Source of the DNA: Chitinophagaceae bacterium
Lineage (GTDB): Bacteria > Bacteroidota > Bacteroidia > Chitinophagales > Chitinophagaceae
Assembly (NCBI GenBank): GCA_019752045.1
Contig: JAIEMP010000003.1
Span: 310,001 to 374,000 of the forward strand
DNA: 64,000 nucleotides
Direction: 5' to 3'
The notes below the pieces were generated by a model, which saw only the letters and a list, made by a program, of their open reading frames with translations, made no database searches and was not told where the DNA came from. Position numbers and translations under genes: made by a program. Positions 28,132-59,401 of this stretch are shown here, in pieces. Position 1 is the first letter of the stretch; each line of letters opens with the position of its first letter.

Positions 28132-28168
28132 CCTCACCCTCATTCCCTCTCCAAAGGGAGAGGGAGGC
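28132..28168. repeat. Palindromic repeat, CCTCACCC family
   Basis: CCTCACCC followed by the 9-bp stem TCCCTCTCC / GGAGAGGGA with loop AAAG. The same sequence architecture occurs inside the dihydroorotase gene at 58379-58410. Confidence 0.7.
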
Positions 28169-28386: not shown

Positions 28387-31300
28387 ATGGAATACAAGTT
28401 TAGAGAAATAGAAAAGAAATGGCAGGAACACTGGAACGCAACAAAAGCATACAAGGTTTCTAATCCTTCGACAGGCTCAGGACAGGCTCCGCTCAAACCG
28501 AAGTTTTATGTGTTGGATATGTTTCCCTATCCCAGTGGAGCAGGTTTGCATGTAGGTCATCCGTTAGGTTATATTGCCAGCGATATTTATTCCCGTTTCA
28601 AACGACTGAAAGGATTTAATGTACTGCATCCGATGGGTTACGATGCATTTGGTTTGCCTGCCGAACAATATGCCATTGAACATGGGGTACACCCCGCCGT
28701 TAGTACCGAGCAGAACATTGCTAACTTTCGCAGGCAGTTGGATAATATCGGTTTCTGTTACGATTGGGATCGTGAAGTACGCACTTGTGAACCCGGCTAT
28801 TATAAATGGACACAGTGGATTTTTTTACAACTCTTCAATAGTTTTTACAACCGTGTAACAAACAAAGCAGAAAAGATTGATGGGCTTATTGCTGCTTTTG
28901 AAAAAGAGGGAAACGCAATACACCCAATTCCCAATTCCCAATTCCAAATTACTTCGTTTACTGCAGACGAATGGAAAGCCTTCGATGAAAAAACGCAACA
29001 GGACATTCTCATGCAATACCGTCTTGCCTATTGCGGTTACGGCGAAGTAAACTGGTGCGAAGCATTGGGTACTGTATTGGCAAATGATGAAGTAGTGAAT
29101 GGTGTAAGTGAACGTGGCGGCCATCCGGTTGTGAAAAAGAAATTGCGTCAATGGTATTTGCGTATTACAGAATATGCCGATCGTTTACTGGAAGGTTTAG
29201 AGCGCATTGAATTCAGCGAAAGCATGAAAGAAATGCAAAGCAACTGGATAGGGAAGAGTAGTGGGGCTGAGATAACATTTGACATAAAAAAGCCCCCTCT
29301 AACTCCCCCGGAGGGGGAGAACCGACCTGCTTCTGAACTTCATCGGCAAACTGCAAGAGCATCAACTTATGGTTTATTAAAGGAGCTGAGTAAAGAACTT
29401 AAACAATCTCCAACGGAAGAAGAAAATATGCTGTGGCAATATTTGCGATCTCATAAAACAGGTCATCATATTCGCAGACAACATATCATCGACCAATACA
29501 TTGTTGATTTTGTTTGTTTAGATAGAAGAGTAACCATTGAAGTTGATGGAGGTTATCACAACAACGAAGAGCAACGGAAGTATGATGAAGCAAGAACAGC
29601 CTTTCTGAATGAACTGGGTTTTGAAGAGATGAGATTTGCAAATGAAGAAGTAAAGCAGAATACAGATGCAGTTGTTGAAAAAATAATTCAAAAGCTGAAT
29701 AGTAAACCTTCAGTTCGGCAAGTCTCTTCCCCGGGGGGAGATTTAGAGGGGGCTTCTTTGACTGTTTACACCACCCGCCCCGATACCATCTTTGGTGTTG
29801 ACTTTATGGTGATTGCTCCTGAGTTGGATCTGGTTGATCAGATAAAATCAGCTGCACAAACAGCAGCCGTTGATGAATACATTGCTTATGTAAAAAGCAG
29901 AAGTGAACGTGAACGACAGGCGGAGAAAAAAATTACCGGTGTATTTACAGGGGCATATGCAGTAAATCCATTTGATGGAAGAGAAATTCCGATCTGGATC
30001 AGCGAGTATGTATTGGCAGGTTATGGCACAGGCGCAATTATGGCCGTGCCTTGCGGCGATGAACGTGACTTTAAATTTGCAAAGCATTTTAATATTCCCA
30101 TCAGCAATATCATTGGCAAATATTTTAACGGCGAAGAAGCGAATGCAACTAAAGATGCCATCTTAGAGAACAGTGGTTTCTTAGACGGCACTCCCATGCG
30201 TGAAGCTGCTGAAATAGTAATTAATAAACTGGAGGAATTAGAAATTGGTAAACGCAAGGTCAATTATAAAATGCGTGATGCAGCGTTTAGCCGCCAACGT
30301 TATTGGGGTGAACCATTTCCGATTGTTTGGAAAAACGGTATTGCTTATCCATTAAGTGAAGATCAGTTGCCGCTTACATTGCCCAATGTTGAAAGTTATA
30401 GCCCTGGCCCTGATGGTGAAGGCCCACTTGCCAACATTCCAGACTGGATTAATCAGTTTGAGGGTTTGCAAGTCCCATCCTTCGGAGGGGATTTAGGGGA
30501 GGTTCGTGGTGCCGCCTTGGAGACCAATACAATGCCCGGCTATGCAGGTTCTTCGTGGTATTTCTTACGTTACATGGATCCGCATAATGACCAAACATTT
30601 TGTGATCGTTCAGTAAGTGATTACTGGAACCAGGTTGATATTTACATTGGTGGTACTGAACATGCAGTTGGTCATTTATTGTACAGCCGTATGTGGACGA
30701 AAGCTTTGTACGATCTTGGGCATATTGGTTTTGATGAGCCATTTAAGAAATTGGTAAATCAGGGAATGATACAGGGAAGTTCGAGGTTTGTGTATCGGGT
30801 AGTATTTACAAAGGGGGACATTAATAATGATGCTCCATTGTTTATTTCGTTTAACCTGATTTCAAAGTTTTTAAATAAGCAACTAACTGTTGAAGAAACT
30901 AACGAGTTGTTTCAAATTATTCGGGAAAGGGCTGAAGATTATGCAGACTGGACTAGTGTTAAAAACAAAGTAGATTTTTTGATCACTCCTTTACATGTCG
31001 ATGTTAATATAGTTGATGGGAATGTTCTAGATATTGAAGCGTTTAGGAAATGGCGTAATGGAGAGTTTGCTAATGCTAGATTTATTAATTACTATACATT
31101 GTCTGACTTAGATAGTGAGAAGCCTGAGGGAATTTATTTATGCGGCTCTGAAGTAGAAAAAATGAGCAAGAGCAAATTCAACACAGTGAACCCTGATGAT
31201 CTTGTAACTAAATACGGTGCAGATACTTTCCGTATGTATGAAATGTTCCTTGGTCCGGTTGAGATCAGTAAGCCTTGGGACACGAAGGGGATTGAAGGTG

Positions 31301-31869
31301 TACATCGTTTCTTAAAAAAACTCTGGCGCTTGTTTTACTTGCCCGCCGAAGCTTCAGCGAAGGAGGGCGATGAAGGAAAAGCAATTTGGACTAACGAGAA
31401 AGCAACGGATGCCGAATTGAAAGTGCTGCACAAGACGATCAAAAAAATTGAAGACGATACCGAGCGTTTTAGTTTCAACACCGGTGTAAGTACATTCATG
31501 ATTGCTGTGAATGAGTTGAGTGATCTCAAATGCCATAAGAAAGAAATTCTTGAACAGCTACTCATTCTCTTAACACCGTACGCACCCCATGTAAGTGAAG
31601 AGTTGTGGAGTAAGTTAGGCAACGGTGGTTCTATTCTTGATGCTGCATTTCCGAAATTTGAAGCGAAGTATGTTACTGAATCAACCAAAGATTACCCGGT
31701 AGCAATTAATGGTAAAACAAGAACAGAGCTTACACTTGATTTGAGTATAACACAGGCAGAAGTAGAACAGATCGTGTTGAACAATGAAGTAGTACTGAAA
31801 TGGCTCGAAGGCAAGCAGCCAAAGAAAATCATTTATGTAAAGAATAAAATGATCAATGTAGTAATTTAA
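28387..31869 (+). CDS. leuS: Leucyl-tRNA synthetase with in-frame insertions, including a DUF559 endonuclease domain
   Basis: Charges tRNA-Leu. The class I signatures HVGHPLGY (residues about 54-61) and KMSKS (925-929) are intact, as are the CP1 editing-domain start VYTTRPDTIFGVDFM and MPGYAGSSWYFLRYMDP. At 1160 residues it is over 200 longer than a usual bacterial LeuRS. The excess lies in discrete in-frame segments: a palindrome near residues 26-37, a heptamer repeat near 179-188, a 466-bp element near 302-457 coding a DUF559 endonuclease domain, a palindrome near 695-708, and one near 985-994; there is also an expanded stretch near 800-860. All are at variable loops and leave the frame open, so the enzyme is probably functional. 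No intein splice motifs are seen. Confidence 0.95.
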   Translation: MEYKFREIEKKWQEHWNATKAYKVSNPSTGSGQAPLKPKFYVLDMFPYPSGAGLHVGHPLGYIASDIYSRFKRLKGFNVLHPMGYDAFGLPAEQYAIEHGVHPAVSTEQNIANFRRQLDNIGFCYDWDREVRTCEPGYYKWTQWIFLQLFNSFYNRVTNKAEKIDGLIAAFEKEGNAIHPIPNSQFQITSFTADEWKAFDEKTQQDILMQYRLAYCGYGEVNWCEALGTVLANDEVVNGVSERGGHPVVKKKLRQWYLRITEYADRLLEGLERIEFSESMKEMQSNWIGKSSGAEITFDIKKPPLTPPEGENRPASELHRQTARASTYGLLKELSKELKQSPTEEENMLWQYLRSHKTGHHIRRQHIIDQYIVDFVCLDRRVTIEVDGGYHNNEEQRKYDEARTAFLNELGFEEMRFANEEVKQNTDAVVEKIIQKLNSKPSVRQVSSPGGDLEGASLTVYTTRPDTIFGVDFMVIAPELDLVDQIKSAAQTAAVDEYIAYVKSRSERERQAEKKITGVFTGAYAVNPFDGREIPIWISEYVLAGYGTGAIMAVPCGDERDFKFAKHFNIPISNIIGKYFNGEEANATKDAILENSGFLDGTPMREAAEIVINKLEELEIGKRKVNYKMRDAAFSRQRYWGEPFPIVWKNGIAYPLSEDQLPLTLPNVESYSPGPDGEGPLANIPDWINQFEGLQVPSFGGDLGEVRGAALETNTMPGYAGSSWYFLRYMDPHNDQTFCDRSVSDYWNQVDIYIGGTEHAVGHLLYSRMWTKALYDLGHIGFDEPFKKLVNQGMIQGSSRFVYRVVFTKGDINNDAPLFISFNLISKFLNKQLTVEETNELFQIIRERAEDYADWTSVKNKVDFLITPLHVDVNIVDGNVLDIEAFRKWRNGEFANARFINYYTLSDLDSEKPEGIYLCGSEVEKMSKSKFNTVNPDDLVTKYGADTFRMYEMFLGPVEISKPWDTKGIEGVHRFLKKLWRLFYLPAEASAKEGDEGKAIWTNEKATDAELKVLHKTIKKIEDDTERFSFNTGVSTFMIAVNELSDLKCHKKEILEQLLILLTPYAPHVSEELWSKLGNGGSILDAAFPKFEAKYVTESTKDYPVAINGKTRTELTLDLSITQAEVEQIVLNNEVVLKWLEGKQPKKIIYVKNKMINVVI
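28465..28497. repeat. In-frame palindromic repeat in leuS (TTCGACAGGCTCAG family)
   Basis: CCTTCGACAGGCTCAGG followed by ACAGGCTCCGCTCAAACC. In other genomes the reverse reading of this repeat gives the familiar spurious peptide PEPVEG, which also appears here on the minus strand. It adds PSTGSGQAPL between the conserved YKVSN and KPKFYVLDMFPYPSG. Confidence 0.7.
28923..28950. repeat. Heptanucleotide tandem repeat in leuS
   Basis: Three perfect CCCAATT units and one CCAAATT. It encodes HPIPNSQFQI in a naturally variable loop of LeuRS. Confidence 0.65.
29290..29755 (+). mobile_element. DUF559-endonuclease element with inverted-repeat ends inserted in leuS
   Basis: A 466-bp segment bounded by a perfect 11-bp inverted repeat (AAGCCCCCTCT at 29290-29300; AGAGGGGGCTT at 29745-29755), each arm continuing into a G/C-rich hairpin. 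Between the arms, in frame with leuS, lies a complete DUF559 (Vsr-like restriction-endonuclease fold) domain: IRRQHIIDQYIVDFVCLDRR, VTIEVDGGYH and GFEEMRFANEEV, with candidate catalytic D374, E385, D387 and H391 (leuS numbering). The first internal in-frame ATG (29428) would truncate the usual N-terminal helix, so it is probably made only as part of LeuRS. Confidence 0.75.
30470..30509. repeat. In-frame palindromic repeat in leuS, same family as the endonuclease-element ends
   Basis: Read on the minus strand: AACCTCCCCTAAATCCCC, TCCGAAGGA, TGGGACTTGC. This matches the layout of the right arm of the 466-bp element (AAGCCCCCTCTAAATC, CCCCC, GAGACTTGC). It codes for extra residues VPSFGGDLGEVRGA before ETNTMPGYAGSSWYF. 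Confidence 0.65.
31341..31368. repeat. In-frame palindromic repeat in leuS (GAAGCTTCAGCGAAGG family)
   Basis: GCCCGCCGAAGCTTCAGC followed by GAAGGAGGGC, with outer arms GCCC/GGGC and an inner dyad. Adds LPAEASAKEG between FLKKLWRLFY and the following helix; the minus-strand reading gives the familiar repeat-derived peptide SFAEASAGK. Confidence 0.65.
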
Positions 31870-31872
31870 TTT

Positions 31873-31985
31873 GCGGTGGGTCACCCGCTGTATTTTGGGT
31901 GGCCCACCGGATTTCACAACAAGTAAAGCTATTCGACAATCTCTTGCCGGTGAGCCACCCTTGAAGAAAGCGGGTGACTCACCGA
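31873..31985. repeat. REP pair, unit 1
   Basis: First hairpin: CGGTGGGTCACCC / GGGTGGCCCACCG (31874-31909). Second: CGGTGAGCCACCC / GGGTGACTCACCG (31948-31984). Each is a 13-bp near-perfect stem with a 10-11 nt loop, the typical BIME arrangement of two REPs. Confidence 0.85.
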
Positions 31986-32076
31986 ACTCCGCTTTTGATT
32001 TTTATTCAACAAAAAAAAATACAGAAGTTTTTTGCGGGGTGAGCAACTCTAAGGAAATCAAGTCGCTTGATCATTT

Positions 32077-32189
32077 GCGGTGGATCACCCGCTGTATTTT
32101 GGGTGGCCCACCGGATTTCACAACAAGTAAAGCAATTCGACAATCTCTTGCCGGTGAGCCACCCTTGAAGAAAGCGGGTGACTCACCGC
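32077..32189. repeat. REP pair, unit 2
   Basis: Nearly identical copy of unit 1, offset by exactly 204 bp, with hairpins at 32078-32113 and 32152-32188. Differences are a few substitutions such as TGGATC for TGGGTC. Confidence 0.85.
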
Positions 32190-32244
32190 ATTCAGCTTTT
32201 GATTTTTATTCAACAAAAGACAAATCACGAAATTTTGTTTGTTG

Positions 32245-32283
32245 CCGGTGAGCCACCCTTGAAGAAAGCGGGTGACTCACCGC
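32245..32283. repeat. Single REP upstream of RAYT
   Basis: CGGTGAGCCACCC (32246-32258) and GGGTGACTCACCG (32270-32282) with the same loop sequence TTGAAGAAAGC as the second hairpin of each pair. Confidence 0.85.
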
Positions 32284-32355
32284 ATTAACTTCACATTTCC
32301 TTCGGAGTTTTAATTTCTGCAAACAATGGTTATCTTTCTGTAAACATCTTCAGCT

Positions 32356-33036
32356 ATGCCTGTTCCTGAACAATTCAAAGCTCCTTTTGAGTTTCAACAG
32401 CACTATCATATTCTGTTTCGAAGCATTGACGGCATTCCTTTATTTAAAACAGATAAGGAACACCTATTCTTTCTTGAAAAATGGAAACGATTTACAGATC
32501 CTGTTTTCGATACTTGGGCATATTCGCTGTTGGATAATCATACACATTTCATTATACAAGTAAAACAGCAGGTAGAAATAATCCAATTGCTACGTGCTTT
32601 AACTGGAGATGAAACTACCAAGGCAATCAAAGAGTTTCTGGATAAAAAAAAATCGTTGATAGGTCCTGTCATTGAACGACAGATCAACAGCTTTATGGTT
32701 TCGTATGCAAATACCTACAATAATTTCATTCACCGAAAAGGTGGATTGTTTCAACAACCATTCAGAAGAAGTGCAATAGCAGGAGATGCACATTTACAAC
32801 AGGCAATCGTATATGTGCATGCGAATGCACAAAAGCACGGGCTGCAAAATGATTTCAAACTGCATCCACAAAATTCGTATCACACAATAGTCGAAGGGAA
32901 CAATGCAATCATCAATACAGAAGCAGTTCGTAATTTTTTTGGTGGAATTGATAAGTTTATCAGTATTCATTCGGAGCAGGTTGCTTATTTTTACAAACAC
33001 CAATGGCCCAATTCAAAAGTAGAAATTGATTCATGA
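32356..33036 (+). CDS. REP-associated tyrosine transposase (RAYT)
   Basis: A 226-residue Y1/HUH transposase related to IS200/IS605 TnpA. The HUH metal site is His62-Thr-His64 in LLDNHTHFIIQ. The helix with the conserved YxxxxN-like block (VSYANTYNNFIHRKGGLFQQPFRRS) and the candidate nucleophile Tyr153 in AIVYVHANAQKHGL are in family positions. RAYTs process single-stranded REP hairpins and are usually single-copy and domesticated. REP-like hairpins flank the gene on both sides, as expected. The ATG at 32356 is the first start of the frame. Confidence 0.85.
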   Translation: MPVPEQFKAPFEFQQHYHILFRSIDGIPLFKTDKEHLFFLEKWKRFTDPVFDTWAYSLLDNHTHFIIQVKQQVEIIQLLRALTGDETTKAIKEFLDKKKSLIGPVIERQINSFMVSYANTYNNFIHRKGGLFQQPFRRSAIAGDAHLQQAIVYVHANAQKHGLQNDFKLHPQNSYHTIVEGNNAIINTEAVRNFFGGIDKFISIHSEQVAYFYKHQWPNSKVEIDS

Positions 33037-45102: not shown

Positions 45103-45131
45103 AAAAGGGTGGTAATTAACCACCCTTTTTT
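45103..45131 (+). terminator. Intrinsic terminator
   Basis: AAAAGGGTGGT, 5-nt loop, ACCACCCTTTT plus further T, 21 nt after the thiolase stop. Confidence 0.85.
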
Positions 45132-57976: not shown

Positions 57977-59401
57977 TCATCGTTCAAATTTCAAGCGTTG
58001 TCCTTTCTGAGACTCATCAAACTGTCCGTTGGTCCGTCCATTAGCCGGACAGGCATACACTAACTGTCCGTTTACAAATGTATGTGTAATGCTTGCGGGA
58101 AAAGTAAAACCTTCCAACGGGCTCCAGCCGCATTTGTATAAAATATTTTCTTTGTTTACTGTTGATGGCTGATTCAGATCGACCAATACCAGATCGGCAT
58201 GATAACCTTCCCGTATATAACCTCTTTCCTTTATCTGGAAACAGGTTGCCACCGCATGACTCATTTTTTCTGCAATTTTTTCTAAGGAGATCATTCCTTG
58301 CTGATAATAGTGAAGCATTAATAGTAACGGATGCTGCACCAATGGTAAACCGGCATGTGTTTGTTCATAAAGCCCCGACCTCACCCCATCCCTCTCCAAA
58401 GGAGAGGGGGAAAGAACACCCTCCGCATTTCTGATCAAACCTTTTTCTTCTAAAGTATGCGGTGCATGATCAGTTGCAATTACATCAAGCCTGTCATCGA
58501 GCAATGCTTTCCACAACGCTTCTTTGTTTTCTTTTGCTTTAATAGCGGGGTTGCATTTAATTTGATAACCAAGTGTTGCATAGTCATCTGCAGTAAAATG
58601 TAAATGATGCACACATACTTCACTGGTGATACGTTTATCTTTTAACGGCATCATGTTACCAAACAACTCCAGTTCTTTAGCTGTGCTGATGTGCAGAATG
58701 TGCAAACGTGTATTGTATTGCCTTGCAATCTGTATAGCCATCAATGAAGATTCATAGCATCCATCCACATTTCGGATGAGCGGATGATCGGCAGCAGTTA
58801 ATTCTCCTTTCTCTGCTTTGATGCGTTCGTAATTTTCTTTGATGATGCTTTCACTTTCGCAATGTGTTGCAATAAGCAGTTCACTTTCACGAAAAACTTT
58901 ATCTAATGTATTGTAATTATCTACCAGCATATTGCCTGTACTGGCACCCATAAATATTTTTATTCCGCAGATATCATTCTTGTGCAAATTTGCTTTTAAT
59001 GTATCATCGGCACTTTGATTACTGGTGCCCATAAAAAAGGAATAATTAGCCAGTGAACTTTGTGCAGCAATCTGGTATTTCTGTTCCAGCAATTCAAGGT
59101 TTAATGCATTGGGGATGGTATTGGGCATTTCCATAAAAGATGTAACACCACCGGCAACTGCCGCTATTGCTTCGGTATAAATGCTGGCTTTATGTGTTAA
59201 GCCGGGTTCACGGAAATGCACCTGATCGTCAATAACTCCGGGAAATAAATGCTTTCCTTCTGCGTTTATTTCAGTCACATTCGATCCAAATTCAAGAGAT
59301 GCGGCTATTTTTTCAATGCGTCCGTTCAGGATCAACACATCATTGCTGCTGATGCTGCCCTCATTTACCACGAAACAATTTTTAAGCAGATAATTTTGCA
59401 T
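57977..59401 (-). CDS. pyrC: Dihydroorotase with in-frame palindromic insertion
   Basis: Amidohydrolase of pyrimidine synthesis that cyclises carbamoyl-aspartate, 474 residues. Motifs include LFPGVIDDQVHFREPGLTHK (a Gln stands where the first His of H-x-H is usual), VAGGVTSFMEMPNT, HILHISTAKEL and ATDHAPHTLEEKG. At about residues 324-342 the segment NAEGVLSPSPLERDGVRSG, encoded by a palindromic repeat, interrupts the active-site loop between DHAPHTLEEK and QTHAGLPLVQ. Frame is kept. pyrC-type dihydroorotase is the best call; a hydantoinase/allantoinase is less likely. Confidence 0.88.
   Translation of the reverse strand: MQNYLLKNCFVVNEGSISSNDVLILNGRIEKIAASLEFGSNVTEINAEGKHLFPGVIDDQVHFREPGLTHKASIYTEAIAAVAGGVTSFMEMPNTIPNALNLELLEQKYQIAAQSSLANYSFFMGTSNQSADDTLKANLHKNDICGIKIFMGASTGNMLVDNYNTLDKVFRESELLIATHCESESIIKENYERIKAEKGELTAADHPLIRNVDGCYESSLMAIQIARQYNTRLHILHISTAKELELFGNMMPLKDKRITSEVCVHHLHFTADDYATLGYQIKCNPAIKAKENKEALWKALLDDRLDVIATDHAPHTLEEKGLIRNAEGVLSPSPLERDGVRSGLYEQTHAGLPLVQHPLLLMLHYYQQGMISLEKIAEKMSHAVATCFQIKERGYIREGYHADLVLVDLNQPSTVNKENILYKCGWSPLEGFTFPASITHTFVNGQLVYACPANGRTNGQFDESQKGQRLKFER
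58379..58410. repeat. In-frame palindromic repeat inside dihydroorotase gene
   Basis: CCTCACCCCAT followed by the stem CCCTCTCC / GGAGAGGG with loop AAA. It is a second copy of the element at 28132-28168, here inside a coding sequence. Confidence 0.75.

Follow-up and report, generated by a model that had tools for sequence, protein, structure and literature searches.

A DUF559 endonuclease element with inverted hairpin ends, in frame and apparently unspliced in leucyl-tRNA synthetase and other Bacteroidota enzymes

INTRODUCTION

The nearest precedents for the insertion described here are the palindromic elements of Rickettsia, the ShiLan insertion, and the WHO elements of yeasts. The Rickettsia elements are selfish palindromic DNA lying in frame in unrelated genes and translated as fusions; they are ~150 bp long and encode a conserved peptide, and the part of the source consulted does not mention a nuclease (PMC10969869). 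ShiLan, found in phage DNA methylases, is an endonuclease insertion without a detectable intein or intron, patchily distributed and judged to be actively homing; the same account also mentions a lone LAGLIDADG insertion in which no splicing domain was detected (PMC11855218, 2025). ShiLan is unspliced and open in the host frame, but its HNH nuclease is read in another frame than the host protein, and it lies in phage methylases only (PMC11855218). WHO elements home into an essential gene without protein splicing; they replace the 3′ end of FBA1, forming no domain inside the host protein, and hairpin ends are not mentioned in the abstract (PMC7282813). Three further systems bear on the comparison. 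Inteins with homing endonucleases place an in-frame nuclease beside conserved motifs of conserved genes (PMC3943268). I-Bth0305I, an EDxHD homing endonuclease listed among the intron-type phage enzymes, has additional DNA-binding regions (PMC3943268); in our comparisons, its catalytic domain is similar in fold and profile to the nuclease studied here. REP palindromes with their RAYT transposase are palindromic repeats near a small gene (PMC3733652).

The element that we describe, in the leuS gene of a Chitinophagaceae genome, resembles each of these systems in part. It meets the description of the Rickettsia elements, in-frame palindromic insertion into unrelated genes, but carries a nuclease. 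Compared with ShiLan, the nuclease belongs to another family and is read in the host frame (so that the ShiLan hallmark of a nuclease in a different frame is not met), the ends are inverted hairpins, and the hosts are many cellular, partly essential enzymes. Unlike I-Bth0305I, it has no intron detectable with Rfam and consists of the domain alone; unlike inteins, it has no splicing domain detectable with Pfam. A search of the open-access full-text literature found no paper that, by its title and the start of its abstract, deals with DUF559 elements of this kind; bioRxiv and the majority of subscription papers lay outside the scope of that search.

RESULTS AND DISCUSSION

Anatomy of the leuS insertion

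All coordinates refer to the window, the whole 64,000-nucleotide stretch that was analyzed. leuS occupies positions 28387 to 31869 on the forward strand as a single open frame with an ATG start, encoding 1160 aa with the insert. An earlier note, written from the DNA alone, had reported a 466-bp in-frame block in this gene and interpreted it as an unspliced endonuclease mobile element. The block is real: it runs in the one open frame from 29290 to 29755 (forward strand), between the LeuRS motifs SNWIGKSSGAEITFDIK and LTVYTTRPDTIFG, as seen against the 11 alleles of the genus in which the site is empty. Its outermost sequences, 29290 to 29302 and 29743 to 29755, are perfect inverse repeats (AAGCCCCCTCTAA) of 13 bp, not of the 11 bp given earlier, and the wider arms (29286 to 29320 and 29725 to 29759) are 80% complementary over 35 nt. 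The left end (29290 to 29320, forward strand) consists of the outer arm followed by a 7-bp hairpin at 29303 to 29319; the right end (29725 to 29755, forward strand) is its inverse and folds poorly, giving only a weak hairpin. Both ends are translated, in the conceptual protein, as linkers.

Between them lies a whole DUF559 endonuclease domain (29380 to 29697, forward strand; aa 332 to 437 of LeuRS), identified by Pfam (PF04480; E = 3.9e-32, 110.8 bits against a curated cutoff of 20.6) and by the structural model and the structure and profile matches given below. Residues D374, E385, D387, and H391 are where the earlier note had placed them, and the nuclease indeed lacks a good start of its own: reading of the sequence found no in-frame ATG, GTG, or TTG between the left end and the domain. 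The nuclease precedes the larger part of the LeuRS editing domain (aa 456 to 616 by Pfam). In a model of the entire LeuRS (pLDDT 79.2, pTM 0.66), the nuclease part was predicted well and was bordered by low-confidence stretches at aa 304 to 319 and 444 to 452, which are largely the translated ends; strands at aa 290 to 301 and 457 to 462 flank them.

The nuclease is conserved and resembles a homing endonuclease

Across 109 analyzed copies of DUF559, the columns matching the four residues named above are 99 to 100% conserved. Of 15 pairs for which dN/dS of the domain was attempted, 4 had saturated synonymous sites; 10 of the 11 defined pairs gave values of 0.044 to 0.138, and the remaining one, with almost no change, gave 0.246. 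Substitution patterns thus place the nuclease under purifying selection. The modeled domain (pLDDT 89.5) had as its top Foldseek match 3hrl, an uncharacterized endonuclease-like protein, followed by the catalytic domain of I-Bth0305I (Foldseek E = 3.0e-4, TM-score 0.75 by target; hmmsearch E = 2.9e-6). The predicted fold therefore has a homing endonuclease as its nearest solved structure of known role; cutting of an empty site is inferred, with comparative support only. The match to Vsr was weaker (Foldseek E = 0.16), PADLOC returned a weak match to defense nucleases (E = 0.00017), and PHROGs returned weak nuclease matches only.

One LeuRS site has been invaded more than once

leuS was read in the 14 genomes of the genus returned by the search, our own included. 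The block is present in three of them (our own, G299, and G296), and the site is empty in the other 11, where a loop of ~5 to 8 codons (e.g., GHEQK) stands in place of the element. When filled and empty alleles were compared, no target duplication was visible by eye at the insert. The earlier reading would have been refuted had all relatives shared the insertion as an old domain or had a second leuS existed elsewhere; neither was found to be the case. A whole-protein search of the genome gave a single full match to LeuRS, and the other seven places that it returned were four DUF559 copies and three short, weak matches in other open frames. The empty alleles, together with the unlike nuclease lineages described next, rule out an old LeuRS domain.

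Among the 109 copies, 28 occupy this LeuRS site (site A) and 10 occupy a second one (site B), located just before ETNTMPGYAGSSW; in three rows of a tree of 81 LeuRS proteins, both sites are filled. On that tree, built with the insert cut out, the presence of the element requires at least 19 changes at site A and 7 at site B; gains cannot be told from losses in these counts, and the sample favors carriers. Three genomes of a different family (L185, L188, and L207) carry the element at site A as well. In the nuclease phylogeny, at least eight changes are required to account for the site A copies, two of which are forced by well-supported branches, and a single clade of site A copies was rejected (AU test, P = 0.023). 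When three same-genus sets were tested by themselves, the AU test did not reach significance (P = 0.084, 0.15, and 0.187; 105 columns). Two long-branch rows were excluded from the AU tests. Nine same-genus pairs with site A filled were compared after exclusion of pairs with fewer than 250 shared host columns. Their hosts are 81.0 to 86.5% identical, and their nucleases fall into two classes, 75.5 to 80.8% identical in four pairs and only 41.7 to 49.5% identical in five. The five low-identity pairs come from three genera, and three of them include the same locus, L081. Because hosts so alike hold nucleases so unlike, we conclude that site A was invaded more than once.

Insert and host identities gave no clear sign of recent transfer within the genus. 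Between the window and G299, the insert is 95.1% identical and the host parts are 91.0 and 84.5% identical; the corresponding values for G296 are 75.8% and 86.2 and 79.8%. In the comparison with G299, the proportion of synonymous sites that changed is 0.18 for the insert itself, 0.153 for the 150 codons that follow, and 0.449 for far parts of leuS; in the 70 codons before the insert the value is 0.472, so the tract of low divergence is one-sided. In seven of eight pairs, not all independent, synonymous change in the insert was below that of the far parts; the exception, L036-L050, had 0.464 in the insert and 0.361 in the far parts. The low divergence of the insert and its 3′ flank in the G299 comparison may be a hint of co-conversion, as read from synonymous sites.

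The same data bear on the idea that the nuclease is a useful accessory domain kept for a host service, such as defense or guarding LeuRS. Purifying selection and the weak defense-nuclease matches would fit such a role; a mobile nuclease would, however, show purifying selection too, and a serviceable domain is hard to square with patchiness within a genus, unlike lineages at one site, and the unrelated host genes described below. We regard this explanation as improbable.

The ends are kept as DNA

The recurring element type is a nuclease between inverted C-rich hairpin ends. Of the 108 copies with both flanks available, 89 had paired inverted ends that beat all 100 shuffles; no significant pair was found in the other 19, which include 6 of 8 MetHc copies. 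The ends vary in type (ACCTCACCCCnnnCCCCTCTCCnnnGGAGAGGGG, GCCCCCTCTAACTCCCCCnnnGGGGGAG, and others), match within one element (0.68, versus 0.30 between elements), and track the nuclease lineage even when the paired copies differ in both host and genus (rho = 0.26, P = 0.005, the minimum possible with 199 shuffles). Relative to the nuclease, the left-end DNA of one end type is read in each of the three possible frames (17, 6, and 12 cases), giving the translations LTPNPSPKERG, TSPPTPLQGSG, and TSPQPLSKGEG. As the same DNA is read in three frames, it is the DNA and not a peptide that has been kept. In the 80 fused elements whose ends are clear, 75 of the left ends and 69 of the right ends can be read through without a stop in at least two forward frames, a count for which there was no control.

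The three reading frames also bear on whether the block might be an intein or intron of an undetected kind, removed after translation or transcription. Its sites do lie beside conserved motifs, as those of inteins do. The block codes for the nuclease alone, however, with no Hint-type or other protein-splicing domain found by Pfam in the leuS frame, and ends that are read in three frames leave no fixed splice residues. Rfam gave no group I or group II intron up to an E value of 1, its three matches all being far below the family cutoffs. The absence of intein or intron signals reported earlier is thus borne out within the scope of these two databases, known types of intein and intron were rejected on this basis, and we consider an unrecognized one very unlikely.

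Related elements occupy many host genes

DUF559 was found in at least 156 of 294 genomes of the family and in at least 198 of 345 across the phylum. In our own genome, a second copy with a similar left end lies in frame in acetyl-CoA synthetase, and three others have short open frames to themselves. For copies in other genomes, host assignment by family search gave internal insertions in MetRS, IcmF, MetH, AroC, CinA, adenine deaminase, ligase-associated DEXH helicase, IspG (GcpE), HsdR, an M23 peptidase frame, RecG, IleRS, ValRS, RdgB, RecJ, and UvrA and N-terminal fusions to ArgB, guanylate kinase, IspF, PriA, GHMP kinase, and a nucleotidyl transferase. With LeuRS and acetyl-CoA synthetase, 24 host protein families were identified, 18 of them with internal insertions. 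In a scan of one genome per species, 62 of 82 DUF559 hits in the best 80 loci were in fused frames, one of them doubtful (L251, aa 850 to 939); this set is biased toward the query, in which fused copies were abundant. From the record titles, we take these 80 loci to belong to Bacteroidota groups. Carriers among named strains include, at the RecG site, Aequorivita todarodis (L213), Tamlana nanhaiensis, and Flavobacterium difficile; in IleRS, Psychroflexus salis (L240); in MetH, Marivirga aurantiaca; and at LeuRS site B, Ilyomonas limi (L262); the hosts of L213, L240, and L283 were checked by family search and those of the other named strains by motif. One HsdR frame (L006) holds, beside its DUF559 element, a GIY-YIG nuclease domain at aa 265 to 331 (E = 6.4e-13), possibly another nuclease family that follows this strategy.

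The 109-copy set was obtained by dropping one antisense frame of L011 and eight loci duplicating others (L001, L002, L004, L005, L007, L019, L029, and L032), and its host labels come from short motifs. In this set, 99 copies lie in frames of at least 200 aa, one of which (L060, 213 aa) shows no clear fusion; the proportion is not a rate, since mainly long-frame copies were fetched. Drafts and metagenome bins make up many of the genomes in the set, which might raise the concern of an assembly or sequencing artifact. Open fused frames occur in dozens of genomes, including single-contig ones and named cultures, and we see practically no room for that explanation.

Recent jumps between genes found no support: the 40 best different-host pairs contained no near-identical copies. 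In these pairs, from which six AroC pairs were set aside as not truly different hosts, the match covers the element or less (340 to 518 bp), reaches ~68 to 76%, and stops near the element ends. A phage or plasmid vector was also rejected; only 3 of 50,697 phage and 38 of 72,556 plasmid records matched, all with less than 60% identity.

These findings allow a second explanation to be weighed, that of a hairpin-ended transposable element that owes its mobility to some other enzyme, or to its nuclease working as a transposase, and that enters tolerant loops by transposition and not by homing. Paired inverted ends, many different host genes, and the solo ends at other sites (see below) are all as such an element would have them, and the inverted ends (13 bp and perfect in leuS) satisfy one criterion for insertion sequences and MITEs. 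The other criteria are not met: Pfam found no transposase inside the element (a trans-acting one was not sought), and target duplication, as noted for leuS, was not seen by eye. Copies in different genes are at best ~70% alike, and the same sites are used repeatedly. Transposition remains possible but is, in our judgment, unlikely.

A homing-type model

Given the alternatives above, we hypothesize that the leuS insert is a homing-type selfish element, composed of a DUF559 nuclease and inverted hairpin ends, that persists as a permanent, unspliced protein domain; we consider this probable. The comparisons support the earlier reading of a mobile element on three grounds, the unlike nuclease lineages at one LeuRS site, the occurrence of the same element in other genes, and ends that are conserved at the DNA level across three reading frames; expression as a fusion and nuclease-driven movement are inferences. 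In the homing model, the element would comprise one endonuclease gene of the DUF559 family, a relative of I-Bth0305I, between two inverted hairpin ends. The insert would occupy a surface loop beside conserved motifs that tolerates an extra domain, and the nuclease would be translated as that domain on flexible linkers encoded by the element's own ends, so that no splicing would be needed. The nuclease would then cut an allele lacking the insert, and repair from the filled allele would copy the insert in; moves to new genes would be rarer than homing into empty alleles. We have no cleavage or expression data, and fusion expression, empty-site cleavage, and any part played by the hairpin ends in moves to new sites are inferred. 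The function of these ends is the weakest point of the homing model: classical homing endonucleases are not known to require ends of this kind, and this counts against it.

More broadly, we think it fairly probable that homing elements that abandoned splicing occur throughout the phylum as permanent domains of essential enzymes, with ends that act at once as DNA signals and as linkers translatable in two or three frames, that they decay to single in-frame scars, and that they have repeatedly reshaped core proteins of Bacteroidota (class I tRNA synthetases, RecG, and MetH). There are many nuclease insertions, under purifying selection and without sign of splicing, inside LeuRS, MetRS, IleRS, RecG, and others. 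If the model is right, live selfish nucleases form domains of core enzymes in this phylum, annotation has missed one class of mobile element, and the insertion sites are evolution-tested places for inserting domains into essential enzymes. Since carriers occur among named cultured species, expression, cleavage, and homing can be tested directly.

Solo ends and other repeats

The end sequence of the window's element has 22 exact matches across the 4.16-Mb genome, of which 3 belong to the two in-frame elements; only exact matches were counted because the backward control also hits the nearly mirror-symmetric motif. For a second end pattern, control and pattern gave equal numbers (15 and 15), and it was therefore used only for finding places. 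We read 35 end loci (20 of the 48 matches of one pattern and all 15 of the other). Twelve lie in open frames of at least 150 aa; three of these belong to the elements in LeuRS and acetyl-CoA synthetase, and the other nine are solo. The nine in-frame solo ends are in MetH, MetRS, LeuRS site B (30470 to 30502, forward strand, where other genomes carry a whole DUF559 element), DNA polymerase I, TrpE, TrpF, a RarA-like ATPase, gamma-glutamyltransferase, and an aminofutalosine deaminase-like hydrolase. Judged by eye from flanking motifs, three of the nine are at sites that hold a whole element in other genomes, namely, LeuRS site B, the MetRS site of L249, and the second MetH site of L278. These solo ends fit a cycle of invasion, decay, and scar formation, or single ends that move independently.

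Across genomes, solo palindromes appeared to be associated with DUF559 (66 of 156 genomes with it versus 16 of 138 without it, P = 2.5e-9). After two sites per DUF559 copy were subtracted, the counts were 18 of 156 and 16 of 138 (P = 1), and DUF559-driven mobilization of solo palindromes in trans thus lost its support. It is not excluded, because the subtraction is harsh, many copies having other end types. In one genome of the family search (G233), at least 54 matches to CCTCACCCCnnnCCCCTCTCC were found along with one DUF559 match among the matches listed, a burst of palindromes.

Solo hairpin ends also lie in frame elsewhere in the LeuRS of the other two carriers of the genus (L172, codons 699 and 1123; L176, codon 979), the only hairpin-positive frames among 38 LeuRS frames at the threshold used. 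The window itself contains four hairpins with pyrimidine or purine arms, compared with a mean of 0.05 in 20 first-order simulations; one of the four (45103 to 45129) is of another kind. Besides that in the leuS element, hairpins of its end type occur at 28144 to 28165, just upstream of leuS, and at 58390 to 58408. Downstream of leuS, two GGTGGGTCACCCGCTG palindromes (within 31871 to 33036) adjoin a RAYT-like gene (32356 to 33036; Y1_Tnp, 22.5 bits, just below the Pfam cutoff of 23). Their sequence is unlike that of the element's ends, and the leuS element, unlike the REP/RAYT pair, holds a nuclease. Within leuS, repeat-like in-frame stretches are also present at 28464 to 28500, 28922 to 28950, and 31345 to 31375 (CTTCGACAGGCTCAGG, CCCAATTCCCAATT, and GCCGAAGCTTCAGCGAAGGAGG, respectively), and this leuS seems to be rich in tolerated insertions.
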